Assembly: GCA_004565275.1 (NCBI GenBank)
Contig: SDOX01000127.1
Span: 44,491 to 108,235, forward strand
DNA: 63,745 nt
Reading direction: 5' to 3'
DNA from: Nannochloropsis salina CCMP1776
Taxonomy: Eukaryota > Sar > Eustigmatophyceae > Eustigmatales > Monodopsidaceae
A program made the position numbers and the translations under genes. Shown piece after piece: positions 13,565 to 63,623 of this stretch (its first letter is position 1; each line of letters opens with the position of its first letter). Below the pieces are notes generated by a model. It was not told where the DNA came from, ran no database searches, and saw only the letters and a list, made by a program, of their open reading frames with translations.

Positions 13565-16500
13565 TCAAGAGGTTTCTGTTGGCGTACTATCTCGGCCAGC
13601 GGGACTGCGCATAACCTGTCGCGTAGCAAGATTACGAGTAAAGGGAAGATTAGGCATTTCCGATCGACCTAGCGCGAGCCAGCACGCCGTACATCCTCCA
13701 ATACTCCACCATACCTGTAACCCAATATCTTCGCACTTGTCCCCGAGCTTGCACAGGTGTAGATAGGAGTCCATCCCAAAGCCTTCCAGGGACTTTACCT
13801 GAGGAGAGGGTTTTAAAAAAAGACGGGGAGACAAATGTTGAACCCTTTCGAAACTCACGGGGGCCGTTTGGCTTGTGCTACGTCCTGGACTTAGGCACTC
13901 TGTAGGTGTCCTGACGCTATAAACGTACAGAGAACATAAATTCAAACGAACCCATTACTTACCTCCAGGTCCCCACCGAAGTACCGAGCGTAAATCCGAG
14001 AGAGAGGGAGGCCCATGCCTGTCATAAATAAGCCCAAACCCGTATTACATCAGTGGAGAGTACATCGTCACTCATTCATTCTACCTTTTCTTCGCTCCCC
14101 TTTCCTCGCTCCCTCCTCCCTTCTCCCTCTACTCACCGTGTCCCGCCAGCACGGGCTCGGTACCGACGTTGGGAAAAGTAAAAGGACCGGCCGAGACGTT
14201 TCCCGCTGGGTTCTATAACCCCAGGCGTGGGCGTAAGTAGGTTCACCCGACACTCAATGAGAAGGGTAGTCACACGTCTTATCCATCTACATCACTGAGC
14301 GTTCATGCATCAAGACGCGACGATATGCAGCCGAGGGACCTCAATCCTTCCTGTCCTCCCCCCCCTCGCATTCTTCCCCTCCAACCTGCCCGCGATGATC
14401 CCTCTTACTCTTTCCCCTCACTTTCGAAGTCCCTTTCCGCCCCATCTTACCGTCACGGTCACATTCTCATCCAAGGAACCCCCTCCCGCCCTCCCGCCTG
14501 GCAAGGGGGCAGGTGAGGAAGGGAAGGAGGGAGGGAAGGTGGTGTAGAAGAATGTCCAGAGCAACCGGAGGTCTGACCGTGGCACTCCGCCGCCCTCGTC
14601 GGCGACCTGATCAGGGAAGAGGGAGGAAGAGAGAGAGGATGGGGGGGGGGGGGAGGAGTATAAGGGCTAGAAAAGTAGCACCCAGGCAGTAAAGACAGAC
14701 ATTTATTTTACAGCCGTCGCCGAAGGAAATGCACTTAAGCCAACACCAGGTCGACCGACCCCAACATATACGCAAATAGGCACGCCCTCTCCCCTCCCTT
14801 CCCTCATTCTAACCTTGATGGTGACGTCCTCCTCGCCCATGGCCACGATCACTTTCACGGGAGGAAGTTCTGCGGGCGTCGCCCTCGCAAAGGCCTGTCA
14901 AGGGGATGAATTAAGGATGGAGGAGGGACGCAAAGAATATCACGGCAAAGTAGAAAGACTTAGAAGGAAGGGAACGGGCGGGCGCGAGGTTACGCCGTAG
15001 CCCTGAGTGGAGGACAAGGAAGGGAAGGAATGACTAGAGGGAAGCGCGGGAAAGGAGGAGCGACCTTCTGGCGAGCCTCGAGTCTTATTCTTTGGTCGAG
15101 GAGAGTGGAAGGAGATGCTTCCAGTGCCGCTGCCCGATAGATGGGGTCATGTTTCTCCACTACGGCCCGGCAGGAGTTCTGAGGGACAAAGGAAAGGCCG
15201 GAGGAAGGGAGGGAAGGAGGGAGAGAAGACAGAAAAAGCTTTGAGGAAGAAAAAAACTATATATCGATGCGAGGGAAAAGGGGAGAAGGAGAGAGCGAGG
15301 CTACTTTGGAAAACGGCAGAGGAAGAGACAACGAAGGGGGGTAAGGGAGAGAGGGGAAGAGGGAGGCAAGGTCACCTTCAGCGTCTCCACAATCATGTAA
15401 TAAAGATGGGAAGGAACGTAGCAGAAGTCGTCCTTGTCGGTGCCAATGGTGCGAACGGTGGGGGCGTTGCCTAAAGCGGCGCGGCAGAGGCTGTGGAAGG
15501 GCGGGAAAGAGGGATGAAAAAGGGTAAGGCGGGCGGCAAGGCAACCGGTAGACTGGAAACAGAGGGTTCAAGAAGAAGCAAAGAGAACATGTGAAAGGGA
15601 GGGTCAGTGGTGGGAGAAGGAAGGAAAGCTCAGCGGCACCGACCGTTCTGCGTCGGCGGCGGCGGCGGTTGCGACCTGACGAGGCGAGCAATGGGAAGCA
15701 ATGATGCCGGAGTAGCCCTCCCTGGGTGGTGGAAGGGGGAAAAGGCAGAATGAATAGGGCACGCGTGCCACAGAGATTGAGCTAGATTGAGGGTCTTCCA
15801 AGGGAGCGAGTGCGAGAGAAGGGAGGCAGGACATGCGAGTCGGCATGCAACGCGCTTCAGCCCCGACAGAGTACGGTGCTTACTCAGCGGAGGGAGAGAA
15901 GAAGAGGAAAGACAGCGTGTTGCAGGGAATACAAAGGAGTGGCGGAAATGGGGTGCATAACAAAGAAAAGAGGGAAAGGACACAATGAGGAGCGACAGCG
16001 GGGAAGTGCGAGAGAATGTTGGAGGGAGGGAGGGAGCAGGCGAAGGTGACCAAAGAGGGCTAAAGCGACAAGCAAACGAAAACAGACGTGCAGAGAGCAC
16101 CAGAGGCCAGGGCTCCACAAGCAGAAGACAAGGGTGGGAACCGGCTGTCAGGGACCGTACCGGGCGTCGTTGCTGACGATGTGGTGCTCCACCAGGAAGC
16201 GGAGGCCGATCCGAGCCGTGTAAAAGCCCGTCAGCGTCTGAGGGCAGGGACCCGATCGTGAGCATCTAGAATATTCTATACTTTCGCAAGCCCCTCATAC
16301 CCCGCATCTCCTCCCCTCAAAGTTATGTAAGCAAGAGCAGTCGGGCACGCACCAAGACACAAGGCTTTCCTCTCTCCCTCCCTCCCTCCCTCCCTCCCTC
16401 CCTACCTGCTCAATGCTCTCCCGATCTGGATCCAGGAGGAGGTCTTCGTAGCTCATATCTGCTCTATACTCCTGAATGCCTGTGGTAGGCGTCGCGAGTC

Positions 16501-52033: not shown

Positions 52034-55000
52034 ATGTCTCTGCGTGTCTGGATCGCCGCGGGTGCGGCCTGCTCGCTCGCCTCTTTGGCTACAGCGTTCC
52101 TACCTCCTTCCCTCTCTTGTCGCGCAGGTACGTAACTTCCAGGAAACTGGACAGGTGTCTGCGGTGACCATGTAGATAGAGAGAGGTGTAGGCGTGCATA
52201 AGGGTAGGAAATAACACGGGAACATTTGACATCCGATACTCCTGGCTTCCGTTACGCGATCTGCACGCTGATCCCGTCCCGTCCTCCGCGACAGGGACCT
52301 CGACTTTCCCCTCTCTGACAGTCAACAGGAAAGCCCTCGCCGCGCCCTTAGCGGCTACAAAGAAGGAAAAGACAGCATGGGACGCGGAGGAGCAGTACGA
52401 GGTGCTGCCCGAGGATACCTTCATCCTGCGCCCCGATATCAAGGTGAGGAATGTGTGAAAAGGAAGGAGCAGAATGCATGGTCGGGTAGGGACTAAATCG
52501 AATACACGTGCTTGCTGGGGAGGAAAGGTTTGATCGCCCTAGGGCTCTCTTACTGATATCTTCATCGCCTCCCCCTTGGCTAGGACTACGCGAAGCTGAC
52601 AGAAGAGGAGATGGCGGCCACAGAGTCCGTTGGCAGCACGGCACCCGACCAAAGCCATACTACTTTTGTCCCAAACTCGCATCCCTTCGCGCACGCGCGC
52701 CTGTTGAACGTGGTGGTGAGTGGCTGGGGGGGAAGAGGGGGGGGTGATAGGAAGGGGATGACATGCGTCAGGAGGGCGCGCGAAAGACGGAATGGGAAGA
52801 GGAAAGGATTGCAATCCTATGCGAGTAGTCTGCGTGTTGAACAGTTTTTCAGCGTTCATATTGGCAGACACTTGCGCGAGGCTCGAGGAAACTAAATTTC
52901 ATGTCGCTCTTCCCCCCTCCAGCTTGTTCTCGTTCCCACTCCCTCTCCCTCCCTCCCTTCCTCCCTCTCTCCCCTCCTCTCTCTCTCGCGCTCCTTCAGT
53001 GCCGTGTCGCCGACTTGGAGAAAACTGTCAAGTTCTATGAGGCTCTTGGCATGATCAACCTCAGGGAGAAAGTCACGCCCGAATACTCCGCCTCCGTCAT
53101 GGGCTTCGGGTGCGCCTGAGGGTTAGGGAGGGAAGAGAGGGGAGGAAGAAGCAAGGGGAGGAAAAGCGCTCCACATCAGAATATTTTGCCAGGAAAAAGC
53201 TGTCAGATGCTTTTTGTCGGCACTTTGCCTACGTTACTCGCCGAGTAACCCAATTTGATCCCCTCTCGGTCCTTCCTTCCTTACAGCTCGGAGGAGTACG
53301 GGCAGAACGTGGCGCTCCAGTTCGTACAAGACTCGAGCCCCGTCTCGCTTGGCGATGGCTACGGCGGGTAGGACAGGGGGCAGAGGGTGGAAAGGGAGAA
53401 GGGGGTGGTGGGGATAGAGATGGAGGCAAGGGTGTGCTAGCTTTGGTAGTAAAGATGGTGGGGGCGGACGTGCATAGGAGAGCAGGGGTCGATGAGGATA
53501 CTCCGATGGTGACTTGGGCTCTTGCGAGGAGGAGAAGAGAGCGGTAAAGGACAGAGGCGACTAGGGGACAGAAAAACGAAGACAAAAGGGTGCGAGAAGG
53601 AGTAAGAGTAGGCAGGACCCCCAATCCAGGGCGGGGCGGTGGTAGCCTTCGAGGATTCATTGACCGAGGACGGTGGTTGGAGGTCGGAGTGCGCGCAGGT
53701 CATCATGAGTAATGACCAGACCGCTCGACTCTCCCTGCATACTTTTCATTTTCCCTTCTCGTCCTCCCTCCCTTCCTTCCTCACTCCCTCCCTCCTTCCC
53801 CTCCTTCGGCTTAGAACCACGTTCCTCGTGCCAGACGTGCAGAAAGCCGTGGCCAAGGCGACCGGCGCGGGCGGAAAAGAGCTCAAGGCCGTGGCGACCG
53901 TCGAGTTTCCGGCCACGCAGGTCCCCGACCAGGTGCATGCCCCGCCTTCCCTCCCTCCGTCTAGCGCCTTTTCTCTCTAGCCTTCTGCTCGCTTGCCCCA
54001 TCTACCCCTTTGCTACAGCCCTCCTCCTGGTCCTCTTTCTTTCAACGCGACTATCTCTTGATGTGCTGACTGTTCGGGCCTGAAAGCCAGCCGTTCTGGC
54101 ATCAGCTTCTTTGTTCTCTACTCTCAGCTAAAGGCAACAAATGGCGAGACGCAGAATTTGAAGCCGACGCCTGCTGAGCCCTCACCGCTCTTTTTTCTCT
54201 CCTCTCTGCTTCCGTCCTAACCCCTCTAGGACGCGCAGGAAGTGAACACTGAGGTAAAAGCCGTGGTGACAGACCCAGACGGATACAAGGTGCGACTGAA
54301 GGCGAATTCGGAAAATAAGCTTTGGCGCGAGGGAGGGAATGAGGGAGGAATGGGAAGAAACGTGACAGGGAAGGAGGGAGGAGAGGGAGAGAAAGAGAGA
54401 GATGGGCCGGGTCGGCACATCTTATGCCGACAGCCAAGGATCCAACGACTCACTTCCTTGTCGTTCCCGCTCTGGTTGCCTGTCTTTCTCGCCCTCAGGT
54501 CACCTTCGTTCAAGGCGAGAGCAAGGACGTCCTCTCCTCTGTCACCCTCCGCGTCTTCGACACAGAGAAGGCGGTTGCCTTCTACAGCAAGCTCGGTGCG
54601 CGTTTCCCTCTCCTCCGTGTCCTCTCCTTTGCTTGCTTGCTCCTCCAACAGTATTTCTATAGAAGTCCTTAGTCGTTGACCTAGACCCGCTCACACGCCA
54701 CGCATTGCGCCCTCTCATGCCCCTCGCAAATATCCCTTTCCCTTGCGCTCCCTTTCTCCTCCTACTCTTCTCTCTTAGGCATGAAAGTCCTGAAGAAGCG
54801 CGCGAACGTGCCGGCGGAAACCAGCATATCGACCTGGGTGGGCTACGACGACGATCATATCTACACAATGGGATTTGTCCACGAGAAACTAAAGCAGCCC
54901 CAGTTCCACATGATGCGGGTGCCCGCCACCACCCTCCTCCTCAAGTGCGTCCCTTCCGTTCTTCCTCCCTACATTCCTGGTTACAACCTCTCTTTTTCCT

Positions 55001-55575
55001 TGCGTTCTCTCCCCAAGTACTTCATCTCTTCCTCGTCGACCTTCGGCATCGATTACAACCCTTGACCGCCCAAGGCGCCTGCTTCCTCAAATCTGTCTCA
55101 ACTTTATCCTGCTTGTCTCTATTTCCTCTTTCTCCTTTCAGTTACGAGTATGACTCTCAGCCCGTGAAGACGGGCAACAGCCTGGCGCAGATTGTGGTGG
55201 GCATCAACAAGGGAGTTAAGACAGCGCTTGACTCCATCGCTGCCGAAGGTAGGGAGCAAGGAGAAACAACACAGAGGAAGAAGGGGGGGGAAGGATAGAG
55301 TCAGAGAGCAAAGAGGTATATAAAGAGATGTGTAGTCGTAGTTGAAAGCGAGACGGAGGTCTGCCAGCATCTTTGCTTTTTGCTTGCGGAGGTGTGCCTT
55401 TGACGAGTAAATCTTATTCCGCGCCGTCGTTACTCCCTTCATCTTTCCTCCAGGCGCCAAGGTGCTGAAGGAGGTTTCAACCGAGGACGGTCAAGACGTG
55501 GCAGCTGTCGCGGACGTGGACGGGTATACACTGACTCTGGTGGACATGGAGGAGTTTAACGCGCAGCTTGCTTAA
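52034..55575 (+). CDS. Plastid-targeted two-module VOC (glyoxalase-fold) protein
   Basis: Eleven exons give 411 residues: 52034-52127, 52295-52443, 52584-52715, 53000-53109, 53287-53367, 53815-53932, 54230-54289, 54499-54595, 54779-54944, 55142-55248, 55454-55575. The N-terminus (MSLRVWIAAGAACSLASLAT then AFLPPSL) is a signal peptide with the stramenopile plastid A-F motif. Two VOC modules follow: CRVADLEKTVKFYEALGM with VVTDPDGYKVTFVQ, and LRVFDTEKAVAFYSKLGMKV with VADVDGYTLTLVD. This is the fold of lactoylglutathione lyase. However, the four metal ligands expected in glyoxalase I (His before the R-V-x-D motif, Glu in ELT, His in FGHIA, Glu in IEL) appear as Asn, Gln or Ala, Thr and Thr in module 1 and are also missing in module 2. 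An enzyme of the standard type is therefore doubtful. Its 3' UTR and exon 5 reappear near 61-63 kb. Confidence 0.88.
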
Positions 55576-56008
55576 AACGAGTAGAGCCGGAGGAGGAGGG
55601 GGGGGAGAGAGGAAGGGATGGGAGAAGAGGAAACAGCGCCGAAATGCCGGTAAACTTCGGCAGTGACAAAAACTTAGAGTGGAAAAACCTTGGATTGGCT
55701 GTCCTGCGAGGGATGCGTGCATGGTCGGAAATGCTATCGTTGTGTGTTATCTATTTGAAGGCGATGAAACGTCGACATGTGTTTGAGAATGTGTGAGGGA
55801 GAAAGTGAGCGGGATGGAGGAAGCGAGGAATGAACATGCTGAAAAAGGACAAAACGAAGGAGGCTGCACTCATGTCTATCGGTCACTTTGCTCGTATACG
55901 GGTATGTTCTCTCACGAGATAGATGTTGTATTGCCCCCTTTGAAAGTTGTTCATTTGAATGACATCTGTGCCGCTGCCATGGATGGGAGGTGCGGTCAAT
56001 GCATGAAA
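55573..56008 (+). repeat. VOC gene stop codon and 3' UTR, duplicated at 62693-63125
   Basis: From the TAA through a purine run (GAGTAGAGCCGGAGG and onward) to ATGCATGAAAGC the sequence is almost identical to 62693-63125. Divergence is concentrated in a short block near 55905-55950. This is the parental copy because it is continuous with the intact VOC gene. Confidence 0.92.
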
Positions 56009-57304
56009 GCGAGAAGGAGTATTCCTTTTTCTCGCGTCCAATATGTAGTTCCGTGTGGATAATTTCCACATTTCCTTTCTTTCCTTCGACGATCTTGCAG
56101 TCCTTTAAGCCCATCTACCTAAATCACAGTCGTTCCCAGCGGGTCCACCTTGTCTCTTTCCCTCTTGTCCTCCTTTTCTGCCTTGCCTTCTCCTTCTACA
56201 AGTCAAACCTCTTCTTATGTCCTATGTCTTGAGCCTCAACAATAGAGAGATGGCTGCATGAGCCCTGCTCCCTGTAGAGAGAGACAACTCAAAGAGTTCC
56301 TTACGAGGGCGAGACAAGGACAAGTCTCGTCCAGAAAAGTATCACACTCCTCGAATAATGGCCGGTGAGCTGACCGAGCTCAAGCAAAGGAAAAGAGCTT
56401 AGTGACGAGGTACAAAGCACAAGCGAGCTAGCCCGACAGAGGATATCACCTCTCCTGAATGATGATCGTTGAGCTGGTAAGACTCAACAAAAATAGCGGC
56501 TTTCAATACATTCCAAAGAAAAAAGTGAGTTTCGAAATGGAGGGCAAAAGCGAATAAGCCTAAATAACGGAGAGCTGGAGTTTTGAGGCGGCGCCCCAAC
56601 TTGCCGCTCTGCATCGAGCCAACCTAGCATCCGCAAGTCTGCAGAACTCCCGATACGTGACTAAAGCATGTTCATTTGCCAGGATGGGAGTTGTTCATTG
56701 CAAGGACAACATAGCCGTGGTATGGGAGAGAGAAATTCGGATGCAACCGCTCGGGGAAACCAGCCTTAGCTCCCTAAGCCAAAGATTCCTCGACGCTCAA
56801 CCGGGGAATTTCCAATTAGTACACTTGCTTTGCAGATTGACGCTGTGTGTTCGCTGTGTCGATGCAATCTATACGTGACCTTGTTGCCTGAATTTTCTTC
56901 ACTATACAGTAAGTACTGAAGTATTATATATATTAATCCTCGATATTATTCTATACCATATGTGTTAAATGTTTTTCGTGAAGGCGATATTGTCAAGAAG
57001 AAGATTCGATCATTCGTCCTCGCTCAACGCACCTACGGATGCTTGGTGCATCCCTTTTTACGAGACATAAATGATGCACGAGATCCGTATGTGTCGTGCC
57101 GTCTACATTGATAACGACAGGATCGATCAAGTGAGATACGTAATGTCGTAAATGACACGACCTTGGGGCTGTGCTTCAAACGACCCTCGTTGCCTCCTCG
57201 GAAACCTGGTCGCGCTGGGCTCCCTGTGGTGTACCATTACTTTCATATTATTCAATTAAATCTCATTTGTCTATACTCATCTATCATCACGTAGACAAGG
57301 GAAC
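56009..57304. other. Intergenic region, no supported gene
   Basis: 1.3 kb between the VOC 3' UTR and the secreted-protein gene. No convincing frame. The part from 56880 to 57300 is AT-rich and probably the promoter of the gene at 57305. Confidence 0.5.
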
Positions 57305-60300
57305 ATGATTTTTGTTTCCTCTAAACTGTGTTTTGCTCTTCTAGCGCTCTTTGCCTTGCACGTCGAGTGTCAACCTGCCAGGTTTCCAGTCGTGCAACAA
57401 TCTCGGGGGCTGGACGAAAAGCATGAGCTCCATGCCAGATTGAAAGAGCTTGTACAGTCCACCGCCAAAAGGTGTGGGACGAGCTGTAGAGATCCACGAG
57501 GCTCCTCATCTTTTCTCGACCGTTTTGCCACACCTGAGGAAAACCCCGACTACAGTAGGACAGCATTTCAAGAAGCGCCGATAAATGCAACACGCGATGG
57601 TCATTTCGTGGAGCGTGAATTACTTTTAAAACCACGAAAGAGAAGGTGGATCAGCAAGAGAAAGCTCAAGAAACAGCTTCAAGAGTGCGAGACTCGCTTA
57701 CAAGAAAGTCAGGACACTTTGGAGGCCCCAAGGCTTCTGTTTGTTCAGATGGCTCAGCACTGCACGTTGGAAATGACAGCAGGACGATATTACCTCCGCA
57801 CGACAGATATGGATGCGGATACCTACGTCTTTACAGAGATGCCCATGCAGCGCGCAACAGTCTGGCCAACAAGTTTCTTTGTCGGCTACCTGTTTGATGA
57901 GTTCTTCCCCGTCGAGAAGCCCAACGCGGCTTTCACCTTCAATGTTTACAACAATCAGTCAGAGAAGACATTTGAAGGACCCCTAATATCTGTCATCCTC
58001 TCGTCGCATGAAGTCGTCCTGCAGGAGGACAACTCCACTCTTGTTGTTTACGAGCTTGGTCAGTCGTCTAAGCAGGAAGCTACGTCCCCGCTGTCACACT
58101 TTTTTCGAGGTGTGGATCCCGGTAGTACGGCATCTGTAACATACGAGCACTGTTCTTTCTTTATCGATCCTGCGACTGGTGACATTGATTCCGACAAAGG
58201 TGAATCTTCCACAGATACCGGAAGTGGCCCATCCCCACCAAATAGCGAAACAAGCCCATCTGCGAGCTTTACTAGTCCAGTGACATCCTTTGATACGACA
58301 ATCCAGACCCTTGAGCAAGCGGCACAAACGGTGGAGAACGGCCCTAAGGGGCCTAGTCCGACACCCAATCCACTTCGAAAATACGATAGAATCTGGAAAG
58401 TGAAAGATAGTGAGGGGAAACTGGGAGGCGGCGTTGAATCGAAAGACTACCTCAAGGGTGCGGCAGACACTATACGTGCTGTGGCAGTTGTCATTAAGGA
58501 ATGCAAAGCGAAGAAATGTGATGGAACCGCCATCGTAGAAGGCGTATCTAATATCCTGCTTGCCGTGTCTCCTGTCGTCGGAGCCGCTTTCCCCCCGGCT
58601 GGTATAGCAATAGCCGTTATAGCTTCCTTCGGTCTTCTCTTTTCTAGCCTTGCATATGAGCCTCCGAGTCCAGGAGCTGCCCCTCTGACACCGTCCATGA
58701 TACAAGACGCCGTGAGACGCAGTCTCGTAAGCTTTACTGTTGCACAGGACACTGAGCTTCTTGAACAATACGCAGTTTTCATCAACATAGATCTCGACAA
58801 TTTCGTGAGGCATTCGGGAAGCCTTGCCTATATTCGCAAGCAAAGGGGGAATGATGGTCAAGTTCTTATCGACAAACAGGTGTGTGGTATACGTAGTTTT
58901 TTTTAAAATAAAACTGCTGCAATAGAGGTATCGTTTCCCGGCTTTATCAAGATTTCCCCCCCCTTTCTCTCGATGCTAGGGAAGTCGTACTCCTTCCTAC
59001 ACTCTCACGTCCCTTAGAATTTTCTTGGCGTGAACGACGGGAGGATAGGGGTGGCGTTGGGAGAACAATGGAGAAACACACCCAAGTTTGTGCACTTCTC
59101 ACATGCATCCATATCCTTGTTATTTCACCCTCAACTCTCCCAGGTCGCTCTTTGGTACCACCAGGAGTACAGTGGAGCATGGAACTCATATCAGTCCGCT
59201 TTAGTCCCGATACAAGTAAAGTATAATACATGGTTTGGGTCAGGCAAGGATAGCCTCCGAGCAGATGTTGCCAACTGGATCGACGAGAACATGAACCAAT
59301 GCCGAGTCACAAAGCAACCTCCAGGAATGGAGAGAAAATACAATGAGTACCCGCCGCCTACAGATGGTGACAATTTTGAAAAGTGTAGGAAAAATGTGGA
59401 TGAAGGTAAAGCCATGTGGGATACTATGTTGGCCTTTGCCGACGCTTACCTTCACATGGCCACGACCCTTATGAATTTTGCCTCTCAAAGCATTGTAATT
59501 ATGCACATGTCCTCGTTTTGTGATCCTGCCCAATTCGACGAGAGCACAATCACTGAGAAATGCGAGTGGAATAGTGCGATTCGAAACTTGCTGTCCAAGG
59601 TATTTGAAGTACAAGGCTATGCGCTCTTTCTCTCCAGGGTCCGCAAAGAAATTGATTCCGAGTGTATTGGTGGAAGGGGATGGCCATTCTCTCAGCAATG
59701 TTCTATGGAGTCCTGCAACTATAAGTGGAGCATTTCACTGGACATGATTAGATATTTTGACACATTTGCTGGTGACACATTGGAAAAGATAGGATTCTTC
59801 GAAATTGAAACCGCCACAGGAGATGTATATTCTTCCTGCCTTAATTTCAGGACTGACAAGGGTAGAGATGGGTTTGCCTATGGGGGTTTCTGGGCGTACA
59901 CAGGCGTGTCGAGGACAGATAAGTCTAAAGATCGAACTGACAAGTTCGACGATTGCGCAGCGTTACCTGTCGTTCTGCGTGGCACATACTCTTTCGGCGC
60001 TGTTCCTAATTACGTTGTGAAACCAGATCTACCTAAATGTGCGGCGACTATTGACGATGTCAGTCTCTGGGGACCCAATTTTCCGTCTGACGAGTCACTG
60101 AAACGGTATACTCCGGACCTTTCCTGCAAGCAGACTTCCGAAGTCTCACGACACTTTAATGTCAAGGCTGACCAGATAGATGAGTGCTGGAAGCATTGCT
60201 CCAATGAGGCGAAGCTCAAACCTATCTTTTTCTTCACCGTCGACACTTTACTACTACTGTGCAAATGTTATTCCACGTGGTAAGTAAGTAGGCGCACATT

Positions 60301-60435
60301 TCCGCTACACTGACATTCTCACAGTCAACTCGTCCCTCTGTTATTCCATAACCTACAACACCGGACAGTGATATTGTTTATGAGCCAGGGACGTCTCTCG
60401 TTGCAGCATTAAAGGAACCAATAAATGAACCATAG
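57305..60435 (+). CDS. Large secreted protein of unknown family
   Basis: Three exons (57305-58879, 59144-60279, 60369-60435) give 925 residues in phase. The N-terminus (MIFVSSKLCFALLALFALHV, ECQ) is a signal peptide. The next 130 residues are basic, with a short coiled-coil stretch (KKQLQECETRLQESQDTL). A Ser/Thr/Pro-rich linker lies at about 300-350. A long hydrophobic stretch at about 410-455 (NILLAVSPVVGAAFPPAGIA then IAVIASFGLLFSSLAY) could span a membrane. Exon 2 is a dense, Trp/Tyr/Cys-rich domain (ALWYHQEYSGAWNSYQSALV, MWDTMLAFADAYLHMATTLM, GFFEIETATGDVY). It ends with a small Cys cluster (DECWKHC, LLLLCKCYST), faintly like WSC or PAN modules. Exon 3 adds CDIVYEPGTSLVAALKEPIN. No family is recognised. 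Exons 2-3 are copied at 61.4-62.7 kb. Confidence 0.75.
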
Positions 60436-61181
60436 CAGCATGGAAGTCCTTGCATTCGGAACATATGGCTCGACGAAAGCTACAACCCGCATTTCATGCT
60501 GACTTTGCAGTAAGGTATATAATCTAGTTTAAAATCTTCAAAAGCTTTCCTTATGAGTTCGCTTGAGCAAAGGACGAAATCTAGAGAAGGTCAGGTCTGA
60601 TCGGCATGGAGTCAATCCCTAAAATGTTACTACAATCTGCTCTACTCTCTTTTCCTGATAGAGCGCACAAACTTCCATTGACTTTCTCATGATTGATATA
60701 CCATATACTCAGAGAGCAATATCTCGTATAAAGTATTAAATTAAATGTCACGGTTAGATATGGATCGAGCACCCACTGGACCATGCCAGCATGAAAACTC
60801 TTACACACGGACAGCCATAGCTTGGCCACAGTTTACGACTCCTTGTCATCACGCCTTATCGAACACCTTAGCACAGTATTTATCCGTCCGCCTCGAAAAG
60901 CTCTACCACTTTATACTAGAGCGTCAAAGAAGCAATCATGCTCAAAACGGGTTTTACCACCGGCGAGTTGTTTTATCAAGTGTCACAACAGCCATCAGTC
61001 TTACCGCACCGGTTTTCTGTCCAAGGTCTTTCTATTCGCCGCCCTTCATAGCTATGCTCTCAACACAGATCTGCATAAACAATAGGTTTAGAGTATTCCT
61101 GGATGACAATGATAAGTCCTCCGCCCCCGTTGCTTTTCGAGGAAAGTGTTTCGTCCTAATCCCCTCCCCTCCACACCGGTC
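60436..61181. other. Spacer before the duplicated mosaic
   Basis: About 750 bases. Frames at 60745-61251 show no features. No similarity to other parts of the window was noticed here except at its right end, where the VOC exon 5 fragment begins. Confidence 0.45.
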
Positions 61182-61280
61182 CAAGGAGTACGGGTTGAAC
61201 GTGGCGCTCCATTTCGTACCAGACTCGAGCTTCGTCCCACTTGGCGAGTAGAGGCGGAAGAGGAGGGGGGGGGAGAGAGG
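61182..61280 (+). pseudogene. Orphan fragment of VOC exon 5 fused to the start of the VOC 3' UTR
   Basis: 61182-61248 is about 85% identical to VOC exon 5 (53290-53358): AAGGAGTACGGG, AACGTGGCGCTCCA, TTCGTACCAGACTCGAGC, CTTGGCGA. It then jumps, at a GCGA/CGAG overlap, into GAGTAGAG-CGGAAGAGGAGG and a G run. This is the beginning of the VOC 3' UTR (55578 onward). The splice acceptor and the rest of the gene are absent, so it cannot encode the protein. Confidence 0.8.
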
Positions 61281-62695
61281 TCGTTTCCCGGCTTTATCGA
61301 CATTGACATTGTTACCCCCGTTCTCTCGATGCAGAGATATGGAGAAATATGCGCAAGTTTCTGCACTCCTTACTCGGATCCATGTCCTTGGTATCTCAAC
61401 CTCAACAACTCTCCCAGGTCGCTCTTTGGTACCATCAGGAGTACAGTGGAGCATGGAACTCATACCAGTCCGCTTTAGTCCCGATACAAGTGAATTATAA
61501 TACATGCTTTGGCACAGGCAAGGATAGCCTCCGGATAGATATTGCCAACTGGATCGACGAGAACATGAACCCATGCCGGGCTACATCGCCACCTCCTCAC
61601 ACGATACGAGAATACGATCAGTACCAGCCGGATATAAGTGATAAAAAATTTGGAAAGTGTACGAAGACTGCTGATGAAGATAAAGCCATGTGGGATACTG
61701 TGTTGGCCTTTGCCGACGCTTACCTTCACATGGCCACGACCCTTATGAATTTTGCCTCTCAAAGCATTGTAATTATGCACATGTCCTCGTTTTGTGATCC
61801 TGCCCAATTCGACGAGAGCACAATCACTGAGAAATGCGAGTGGAATAGTGTGATTCGAAACTTGCTATCCAAGGTATTTGCAAGGCTAAGCGCTCTTCTT
61901 CTCCAGGGTCCGCAAAGAAATTGATTCCGAGTGCGTTGGTGCAAGGGGATGGCCATTCTCTCAACAATGTTCTATGGAGTCTTACAACTATAAGTGGAGC
62001 ATGTCATATAATGCAGTAATTAAAAATAATGTTATAAGCGGAAGCTTGGAGAGGATAGGATTCTTCGAAATTGCATTCTCCCCAGGGGATGTATATTCTT
62101 TCTGCCTGAATATCAGGACTCACGCGGGTAGAAAGGGGTTTGCCGATGGAGGTTTCTGGGCGTACACAGGAAATGCTGTATTTGGTGCTGGGACTGAACA
62201 TCTATTCGAAAAGTACGATAATTGCGCAGCGTTACCTGCCGTTCTCGATGATGAAACCTGTTCGGCGCTGTTCCAAATTACGTTGTGAAACCAGGTCTAC
62301 CTAAATGTGCGGCGACTATTGACGATATCAGTCTCTGGGGACCCAATTTCCCGGTTGATCAGTCACTGAAACAATATGCTCCAGACCTTCCCTGCAAACA
62401 GAGTTCCGAAGTCTAACGACACTTTAATGTCAAGGCTGACCAGATAGATGAGTGCTGGAAGCATTGTTACAATGAGGCGAAGCTCAAATCTACCCCTTTT
62501 TCACCGTCGATAAGGGTTTACTACTGTGCAAATGTTTTTCGACGTGGTTAGTGAGTAGGCGCACATTTCCGCTAAACCGACATTCTCACATATACTCGTT
62601 GCCCTGCTATTCTGTAGCCTCCAACACCGCTCGGTGACATTGGTTATAAGCCAGGGACTTCCCTCGTCGCAGCATTAAAGAAACCAATTGCTTAA
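61281..62695 (+). pseudogene. Partial copy of the secreted-protein gene (exons 2 and 3)
   Basis: The copy begins inside intron 1 (CGTTTCCCGGCTTTATC at about 61282, matching 58931). It continues with an intact acceptor (CTCCCAG) and exon 2 from 61418 to about 62546. Long stretches are nearly identical to exon 2 of the full gene (for example the region encoding MATTLMNFASQSIVIMHMSS), while others, such as 61570-61680, are strongly diverged. The frame is broken near 61890 and again later. The exon 3 equivalent (GDIGYKPGTSLVAALKKPIA) lacks the AG acceptor. Exon 1 with the signal peptide is absent. The TAA is shared with the VOC-type 3' UTR that follows. Confidence 0.82.
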
Positions 62696-63125
62696 GACGA
62701 GTAGAGCCGGAAGAGGAGGGGGGGAGAGAGGAAGGGATGGGAGAAGAGGAAACAGCGCCGAAATGCCGGTAAACTTCGGCAGTGACAAAAACTTAGAGTG
62801 GAAAAACCTTGGATTGGCTGTCCTGCGAGGGATGCGTGCATGGTCGGAAATGCTATCGTTGTGTGTTATCTATTTGAAGGCGATGAAACGTCGACATGTG
62901 TTTGAGAATGTGTGAGGGAGAAAGTGAGCGGGATGGAGGAAGCGAGGAATGAACATGCTGAAAAAGGACAAAACGAAGGAGGCTGCACTCATGTCTATCG
63001 GTCACTTTGCTCGTAAACGGGTATGTTTTCACATAAGGGATTATGTATAGGCCGATTCGATTGTTTTTAAATATGAATGACATCTGTGCCGGTGTCATGG
63101 ATGGAAGGTGTGGTCAATGCATGAA
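62693..63125 (+). repeat. Second copy of the VOC 3' UTR
   Basis: Copy of 55573-56008 (see there), fused in the TTGCTTAA-ACGAGTAGAG motif to the end of the partial secreted-protein copy. Similarity fades after ATGCATGAAAG at about 63125. Confidence 0.92.
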
Positions 63126-63221
63126 AGAGGAAATGAGATTTTTTAAAGCTTCTAAATCTCTCTCCTCCTCTCAGGTCCGTTGTCTTCCGCATTTATCACA
63201 GAAAATTGGCTGCATAAGGTT

Positions 63222-63623
63222 TCATCTGTTCTGCTGCGACGAAGACATCCGGGTATCTTTTCTCGACAAAATAACATGGATCCAGTCCACGGGGCAATTC
63301 TTGATGACCTGGGTAACGAGCGGGCTTGCCCAGGTGAAGTGTTCGTGGTGGGGGCGTGGAATGGGCACGTGGGTGAGATGCACGTGCTGCGCCTCCTCCT
63401 CTGCCTGGGGACCGCGACGCACGTTGGCGAGCATGCGGGCGGCGTACTCATCGATGAGGGCCTCGGAAATCAGCACAATTCCCCACCTACCGACCTTATT
63501 TTTCGTGTCAAACATGTACCGATGCGTAAGCTTAAGGGTCATTCGGTCAAGTGCATCCTTGTCCAAATCGGGAACGATGCCTTTCGTACGCAAAAATGTG
63601 TCACGGCAAAAGTGGTGCATGTC
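63222..63623 (-). CDS. Hypothetical protein, last exon (gene continues to the right)
   Basis: Open frame of 132 residues from about 63620 down to TGA at 63222. It is preceded by a likely acceptor (GGGTAG|GACATGCAC), so it is probably the terminal exon of a gene entering from the right edge; a second exon-like stretch (DEFDIEEG) starts at 63745. The first 70 residues look protein-like and are well mixed in composition (CRDTFLRTKGIVPDLDKDAL, THRYMFDTKNKVGRWGIVLI). His-rich sequence follows. No family is recognised. Its 3' side abuts the duplicated VOC 3' UTR, so the original gene end may have been replaced. Confidence 0.5.
   Translation of the reverse strand, partial: DMHHFCRDTFLRTKGIVPDLDKDALDRMTLKLTHRYMFDTKNKVGRWGIVLISEALIDEYAARMLANVRRGPQAEEEAQHVHLTHVPIPRPHHEHFTWASPLVTQVIKNCPVDWIHVILSRKDTRMSSSQQNR

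Follow-up and report, generated by a model that had tools for sequence, protein, structure and literature searches.

The window, a stretch of 63,745 nucleotides with which contig C18 ends (the readable genome comprises 26.5 Mb in 103 contigs), contains at 61163-63245 a mosaic made of pieces of two neighbouring genes, a VOC (glyoxalase-fold) gene and a gene for a secreted protein. The mosaic is probably an old end-joined subtelomeric patchwork that was later patched by ectopic gene conversion. Its pieces are evidently of different ages, because the fragments share about 81-84% identity with their parents, yet runs of 298 and 150 bases are identical.

The VOC gene (52034-55575, plus strand) is the donor of the exon 5 and 3' UTR pieces. 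It was modelled with 11 exons encoding 411 aa, with an open frame and GT-AG borders at 10 of 10 introns, and the protein matches Pfam Glyoxalase with an E-value of 1.6e-18. Its 3' UTR and flank (55576-56111, plus strand), from which the later patch appears to derive, are of a type here called A, which is also present on contig C60 at 92% identity. The secreted-protein gene (57305-60435, plus strand; exons 57305-58879, 59144-60279 and 60369-60435) encodes 925 aa with 25 Cys, and the hydrophobic N-terminus of the product reads by eye as a putative signal peptide. Pfam and NCBIfam searches of this protein found nothing above cut-off; the best Pfam match, CycT2-like_C, was sub-threshold (E 0.088 for the parent and 0.018 for the copy) and the NCBIfam search gave no match. 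A comparison of exon 1 with solved structures gave only two insignificant matches (E 0.58 and 0.74), and structure prediction was poor, with mean pLDDT values of 35 (exon 1) and 51 (exon 2). Scans of viral and prokaryote contigs, each of limited sensitivity and seeded by two short peptide patterns, yielded no relatives of exon 1. An 89-base part of intron 1 (58975-59063) also occurs on contig C2 (990699-990787, 90%); the copy lacks this part near 61332, and it is perhaps a small mobile insertion.

Self-BLAST of the window recovered every piece of the mosaic that an earlier sequence-only reading had listed, in the same places and order, and the mosaic is thus real. A fragment of VOC exon 5 with the end of the preceding intron lies at 61163-61247 (plus strand) and is 81% identical to 53271-53355. 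This fragment has lost its acceptor AG, its frame ends in TAG where it meets the next piece, and the parent was the only other genome match found. It is followed on the same strand by a VOC 3' UTR start at 61245-61280, the left direct repeat (92% to 55578-55612, with the GGAAGAGG variant), and by a piece of the secreted-protein gene at 61281-62688 that comprises part of intron 1, exon 2, intron 2 and exon 3. The last component is a chimeric VOC 3' UTR copy at 62688-63245 (plus strand), consisting of 298 identical bases (to 63015), a mixed part at 63016-63127 and a tail of a different type, B. The underlying alignments paired 58924-58976 with 61276-61332 for part of intron 1 (76%), 59068-60422 with 61339-62688 for the secreted-protein gene and its copy (84%), and 55568-56009 with 62688-63127 for the VOC UTR and its copy (94%). 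The insert had been described as intron 1 plus exons 2-3; the piece is present, but about 89 bases of parental intron 1 are missing. A search of the readable genome at E up to 1 found no second match to the stretch upstream of the mosaic that separates it from the secreted-protein gene (60436-61162).

As had been proposed, the gene piece lies between two direct repeats of the UTR start (61245-61277 against 62698-62730, 94%), and both flanking copies indeed share GGAAGAGG, while the parent has GGAGGAGG. The repeat cannot be put down to chance, given the genome-wide and shuffled counts of repeat words. The readable 26.5 Mb genome contains four copies of the 18-base CGAGTAGAGNCGGANGAG, three of them in the window and one on C60 (reversed control 0), and the 26-base repeat word, with up to 3 mismatches allowed, was found three times in the window and not at all in 100 shuffles. 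The shared GGAAGAGG, which differs from the parental form at a single site within a purine tract, suggests a common source for the left 34 bases and the right UTR.

The copied piece of the secreted-protein gene is, by its sequence, a pseudogene. It carries a 5-base deletion near 61881 and an in-frame stop at 62414-62416, and its exon 3 acceptor has been lost through a change of CAG to CGG; exon 3 is readable by eye in several paralogues. Because of the deletion, the stop and the lost acceptor, no new gene is evident here, and the idea that the mosaic illustrates a route to new gene ends found no backing in a fused piece that is broken. The possibility that the VOC stop codon terminates a functional fusion gene was likewise rejected, the frame being broken in several ways.

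Inspection of three of the joins by eye showed almost no bases in common between the partners: three (CGA) between exon 5 and the UTR, no exact ones between the UTR and intron 1 (AGAGG if two bases were lost), and one T between exon 3 and the VOC stop. Short homology at GAGTAGAG or TTGCTTAA had been offered as the joining device and was rejected, since neither word is present on the plus strand in the sequences that were joined (VOC exon 5 and the 3' end of the secreted-protein gene). Plus-strand GAGTAGAG is confined to three UTR copies and TTGCTTAA to two UTR starts; minus-strand matches to GAGTAGAG occur elsewhere, at 14127, 54116 and 60640, none of them at a junction. With almost no common bases at the joins and with the proposed words missing from the partners, the junctions seem to point to end joining or template switching more than to recombination between short repeats. 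On the left side, exon 5 is joined directly to the UTR, and according to the gene model about 2.2 kb with exons 6-11 has been left out. Since these exons are absent and the UTR tail is of the other type, the joins near 61247, 61280, 62688 and 63245 all need explaining. Insertion of a transposon with target duplication was also rejected: the insert is a piece of a host gene collinear with its parent and the flanking repeats are unequal, the left one beginning 10 bases deeper into the UTR than the right one.

The right-hand UTR was compared in alignment A1 with two C60 UTR copies as references, and sites were taken as informative where the parent agrees with the first C60 copy and the second C60 copy is different. 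The copy in the mosaic matches the parent at 292/292 positions at 62724-63015. At 63128-63245 it matches the parent at 42/89 and the second C60 copy (C60:23227-23681) at 99/118, this stretch being the type B tail (plus strand). Informative sites of types A and B numbered 46:0 in 62780-63015, 18:6 in 63016-63127 and 7:40 in 63128-63245; the change from type A to type B is therefore gradual and not sharp, and within 63016-63127 the copy resembles type A more closely than type B. What had been called a full 3' UTR copy thus departs from the parent from 63016 and belongs to the other UTR type at 63128-63245. The stretch 63093-63245 is 86% identical to C54:216-368, which adjoins telomere repeats; the type B tail sits directly behind the telomere repeats at the start of C54, and the homology of the window with C54 and with C60 stops in both cases at 63245. 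These comparisons are consistent with an old UTR with the other tail that may have been overwritten from the VOC gene. A minus-strand ORF of 132 codons (63222-63620) adjoins the contig end and had no match in Pfam and NCBIfam searches.

Two identical runs are probable gene-conversion tracts, one of 298 bases in the UTR (62718-63015, plus strand, equal to the VOC parent) and one of 150 bases in exon 2 (61701-61850, plus strand, equal to parent 59427-59576). None of 20000 shuffles reached the UTR run of 298 in 442 columns (largest 186) and none reached the exon 2 run (largest 92). The control pair, the parental and C60 UTRs, was not clustered, its run of 77 being reached by 3693 of 20000 shuffles. 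The exon 2 run sits in one of the better conserved exon 2 stretches of the family, so that selection explains part of its 150 bases. When shuffling was kept within family-conservation classes, 0 of 20000 reached 150 (largest 107), and with third codon positions only, the observed run was reached by 4 of 20000. The flanks of the UTR run are homologous yet diverged, with 34/36 columns identical plus a one-base gap at 62688-62723 and 89/111 at 63016-63127. Where the parent and the first C60 copy differ within 62716-63004, the mosaic copy has the parental base at all 16 sites; at site 62696, left of the run, it equals C60. Right of the run (63016-63127), it follows the parent at four of eight such differences, C60 at two and neither at two, and this split, together with the 18 type A to 6 type B sites, means that the border of the UTR tract is not clean.

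Bounded identity inside diverged homologous flanks, the pattern looked for in gene conversion, was thus found, with a ragged right border in the UTR. Copying would have run from parent to copy, and the C60 copy agrees with this direction at the 16 of 16 private sites. Because the 298-base run looks as though it was copied later, no single date can be read from the mosaic. The sequence-only reading therefore holds in that duplicated pieces of the VOC and secreted-protein genes form a composite, and does not hold as regards short homology, a single insertion and a single date. Among five other paralogue pairs, identity was clustered in three (0 of 5000 shuffles each, as raw values uncorrected for conservation) and unclustered in two (524 and 2204 of 5000).

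Other explanations of the mosaic have been weighed against an end-joined patchwork with later conversion. One duplicated VOC tail split by a single insertion from the secreted-protein gene, with the 34-base UTR start duplicated as the target site and no later copying, would account for the direct repeat around the gene piece and for GGAAGAGG in both copies. Such an event is improbable, given that exons 6-11 are missing on the left, that the right UTR tail is of the other type and that divergence from the parent is uneven, with 292/292 beside 89/111 and 42/89. It is also unlikely that a recent duplication or crossover, and not conversion, brought in the 298 UTR bases: collinear but diverged homology on both sides (34/36 and 89/111) is expected of conversion and not of plain insertion, even if the identity is limited to the parent's own DNA, the run is short and its right border is ragged.

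An assembly artefact, through faulty joining of a repeat-rich chromosome end or through parental reads entering the consensus of the copy, has to be considered since the contig ends just beyond the mosaic and contigs C8, C59 and C77 end inside a family gene; a collapse that placed one parental sequence twice would moreover yield identical runs. The fragments, however, hold many private differences and disabling changes that mis-joined parental reads would not make, the type B tail was found independently on C60 and C54, and the window is free of Ns, so that an artefact appears very improbable.

The secreted-protein gene belongs to a family that an exon 1 protein search traced to 15 contigs. 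In 14 of these the end of the gene lies no more than about 8 kb from a contig end, and transcription always runs toward the end in question; the member on C93 is internal. Telomere repeats, whose unit in this genome is TTAGGG, are present at nine of the 14 ends (C60, C74, C79, C89, C96, C75, C2, C55 and C34). The ends of C18, C59, C77, C8 and C101 are without them, and C59, C77 and C8 stop inside the gene. The placement expected of a subtelomeric family, next to telomeres, is thus seen as a position near a contig end on 14 of the 15 contigs and as telomere repeats at nine of these ends, with the window's own end having no repeats. The right end of contig C18, at which telomere repeats were searched for and none found, is a probable chromosome end, and its subtelomeric status leans on the paralogues. 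An exon 2 protein search added isolated short scraps at C74:10719-10889 (L014), C74:7220-7369 (L013) and C76:46226-46402 (L018). Exchange between chromosome ends is indicated by a block in which C54:212-1849 and C60:23525-25177 are 96% identical over 1654 columns, and by the clustered identity in three of the five other paralogue pairs. On C2 (L025) the coding sequence is followed directly by telomere repeats, on C96 (L020) the repeats start about 137 bases past exon 1, and on C60 (L032) they come soon after about codon 56; these look like broken ends healed by telomere addition. C54 also contains a 264-base near-perfect palindrome (L036:4568-4831; 95% to its own reverse complement) a few kb from telomere repeats.

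In the favoured history of end joining followed by conversion, subtelomeric breaks would have been repaired by end joining or template switching to give the old composite. The pieces have since drifted 16-20% from their parents, and the copied gene is broken. Later homologous repair may have overwritten parts of the composite with short stretches of the intact VOC and secreted-protein genes, by gene conversion from parent to copy. On other contigs, end breaks would have been healed by telomere repeats added inside a gene or UTR.

In other eukaryotes, patchworks near telomeres and conversion within gene families at chromosome ends are well known. Human subtelomeric duplicon patchworks have an end-joined origin, and the VSG genes of trypanosomes are a chromosome-end family in which intact genes and their broken relatives share conversion patches, as appears to be the case here. 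The human patchworks (PMC2323237) likewise have end blocks of differing divergence that are common to chromosome ends, whereas the pieces in the present mosaic are much smaller (0.03-1.4 kb) and are known from the genome of one alga. In contrast to the mosaic VSG genes of Trypanosoma brucei (PMC13233330 and PMC11383311), the patched copy here is a pseudogene, and the likeness concerns the chromosome-end setting and the pattern of patching. By description only, the TLO genes of Candida albicans (excerpt of PMC9713401) are likewise a telomere-associated family spread across chromosome arms; in the present family, in contrast, each of the 14 terminal members is oriented toward its contig end. The SVSP family of Theileria parva (PMC2657828), again compared by description, is also a subtelomeric secreted-protein family, that of a parasite. 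Among the matches listed in a search of open-licence papers, no title dealt with subtelomeric gene families of Nannochloropsis or Microchloropsis.

In Microchloropsis gaditana, spliced leaders have been reported to be added to most genes (89%), and 239 spliced-leader candidate genes are given for the strain studied (excerpt of PMC8570151). The 34-base core of the leader from the same source had 11 exact matches in the present genome (reversed control 0); this number, which covers only exact matches in readable sequence, is far below the published 239. The leader matches and the TTAGGG telomere unit suggest that the alga belongs to Microchloropsis or stands close to it. With leaders on most genes, as in M. 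gaditana (excerpt of PMC8570151), a scrap with an acceptor and a captured 3' UTR could become a transcript. The mosaic itself is probably a by-product, and it looks like ordinary chromosome-end reshuffling by a known process. It may tentatively be suggested, by analogy with parasite surface antigens, that in a free-living microalga a telomere-facing, Cys-rich secreted family trades patches with its broken neighbours and that breakage, healing and conversion generate variants, perhaps against viruses or grazers; we regard this, like the idea of a transcript from such a scrap, as a speculative proposal with a small chance of being right. Overall, the ends of a small algal genome seem to undergo breakage, joining, overwriting and renewed capping, with one gene family riding along. 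The compact, readable locus offers a tractable view of chromosome-end gene evolution outside parasites and yeasts, and the gene family deserves more attention than the mosaic.
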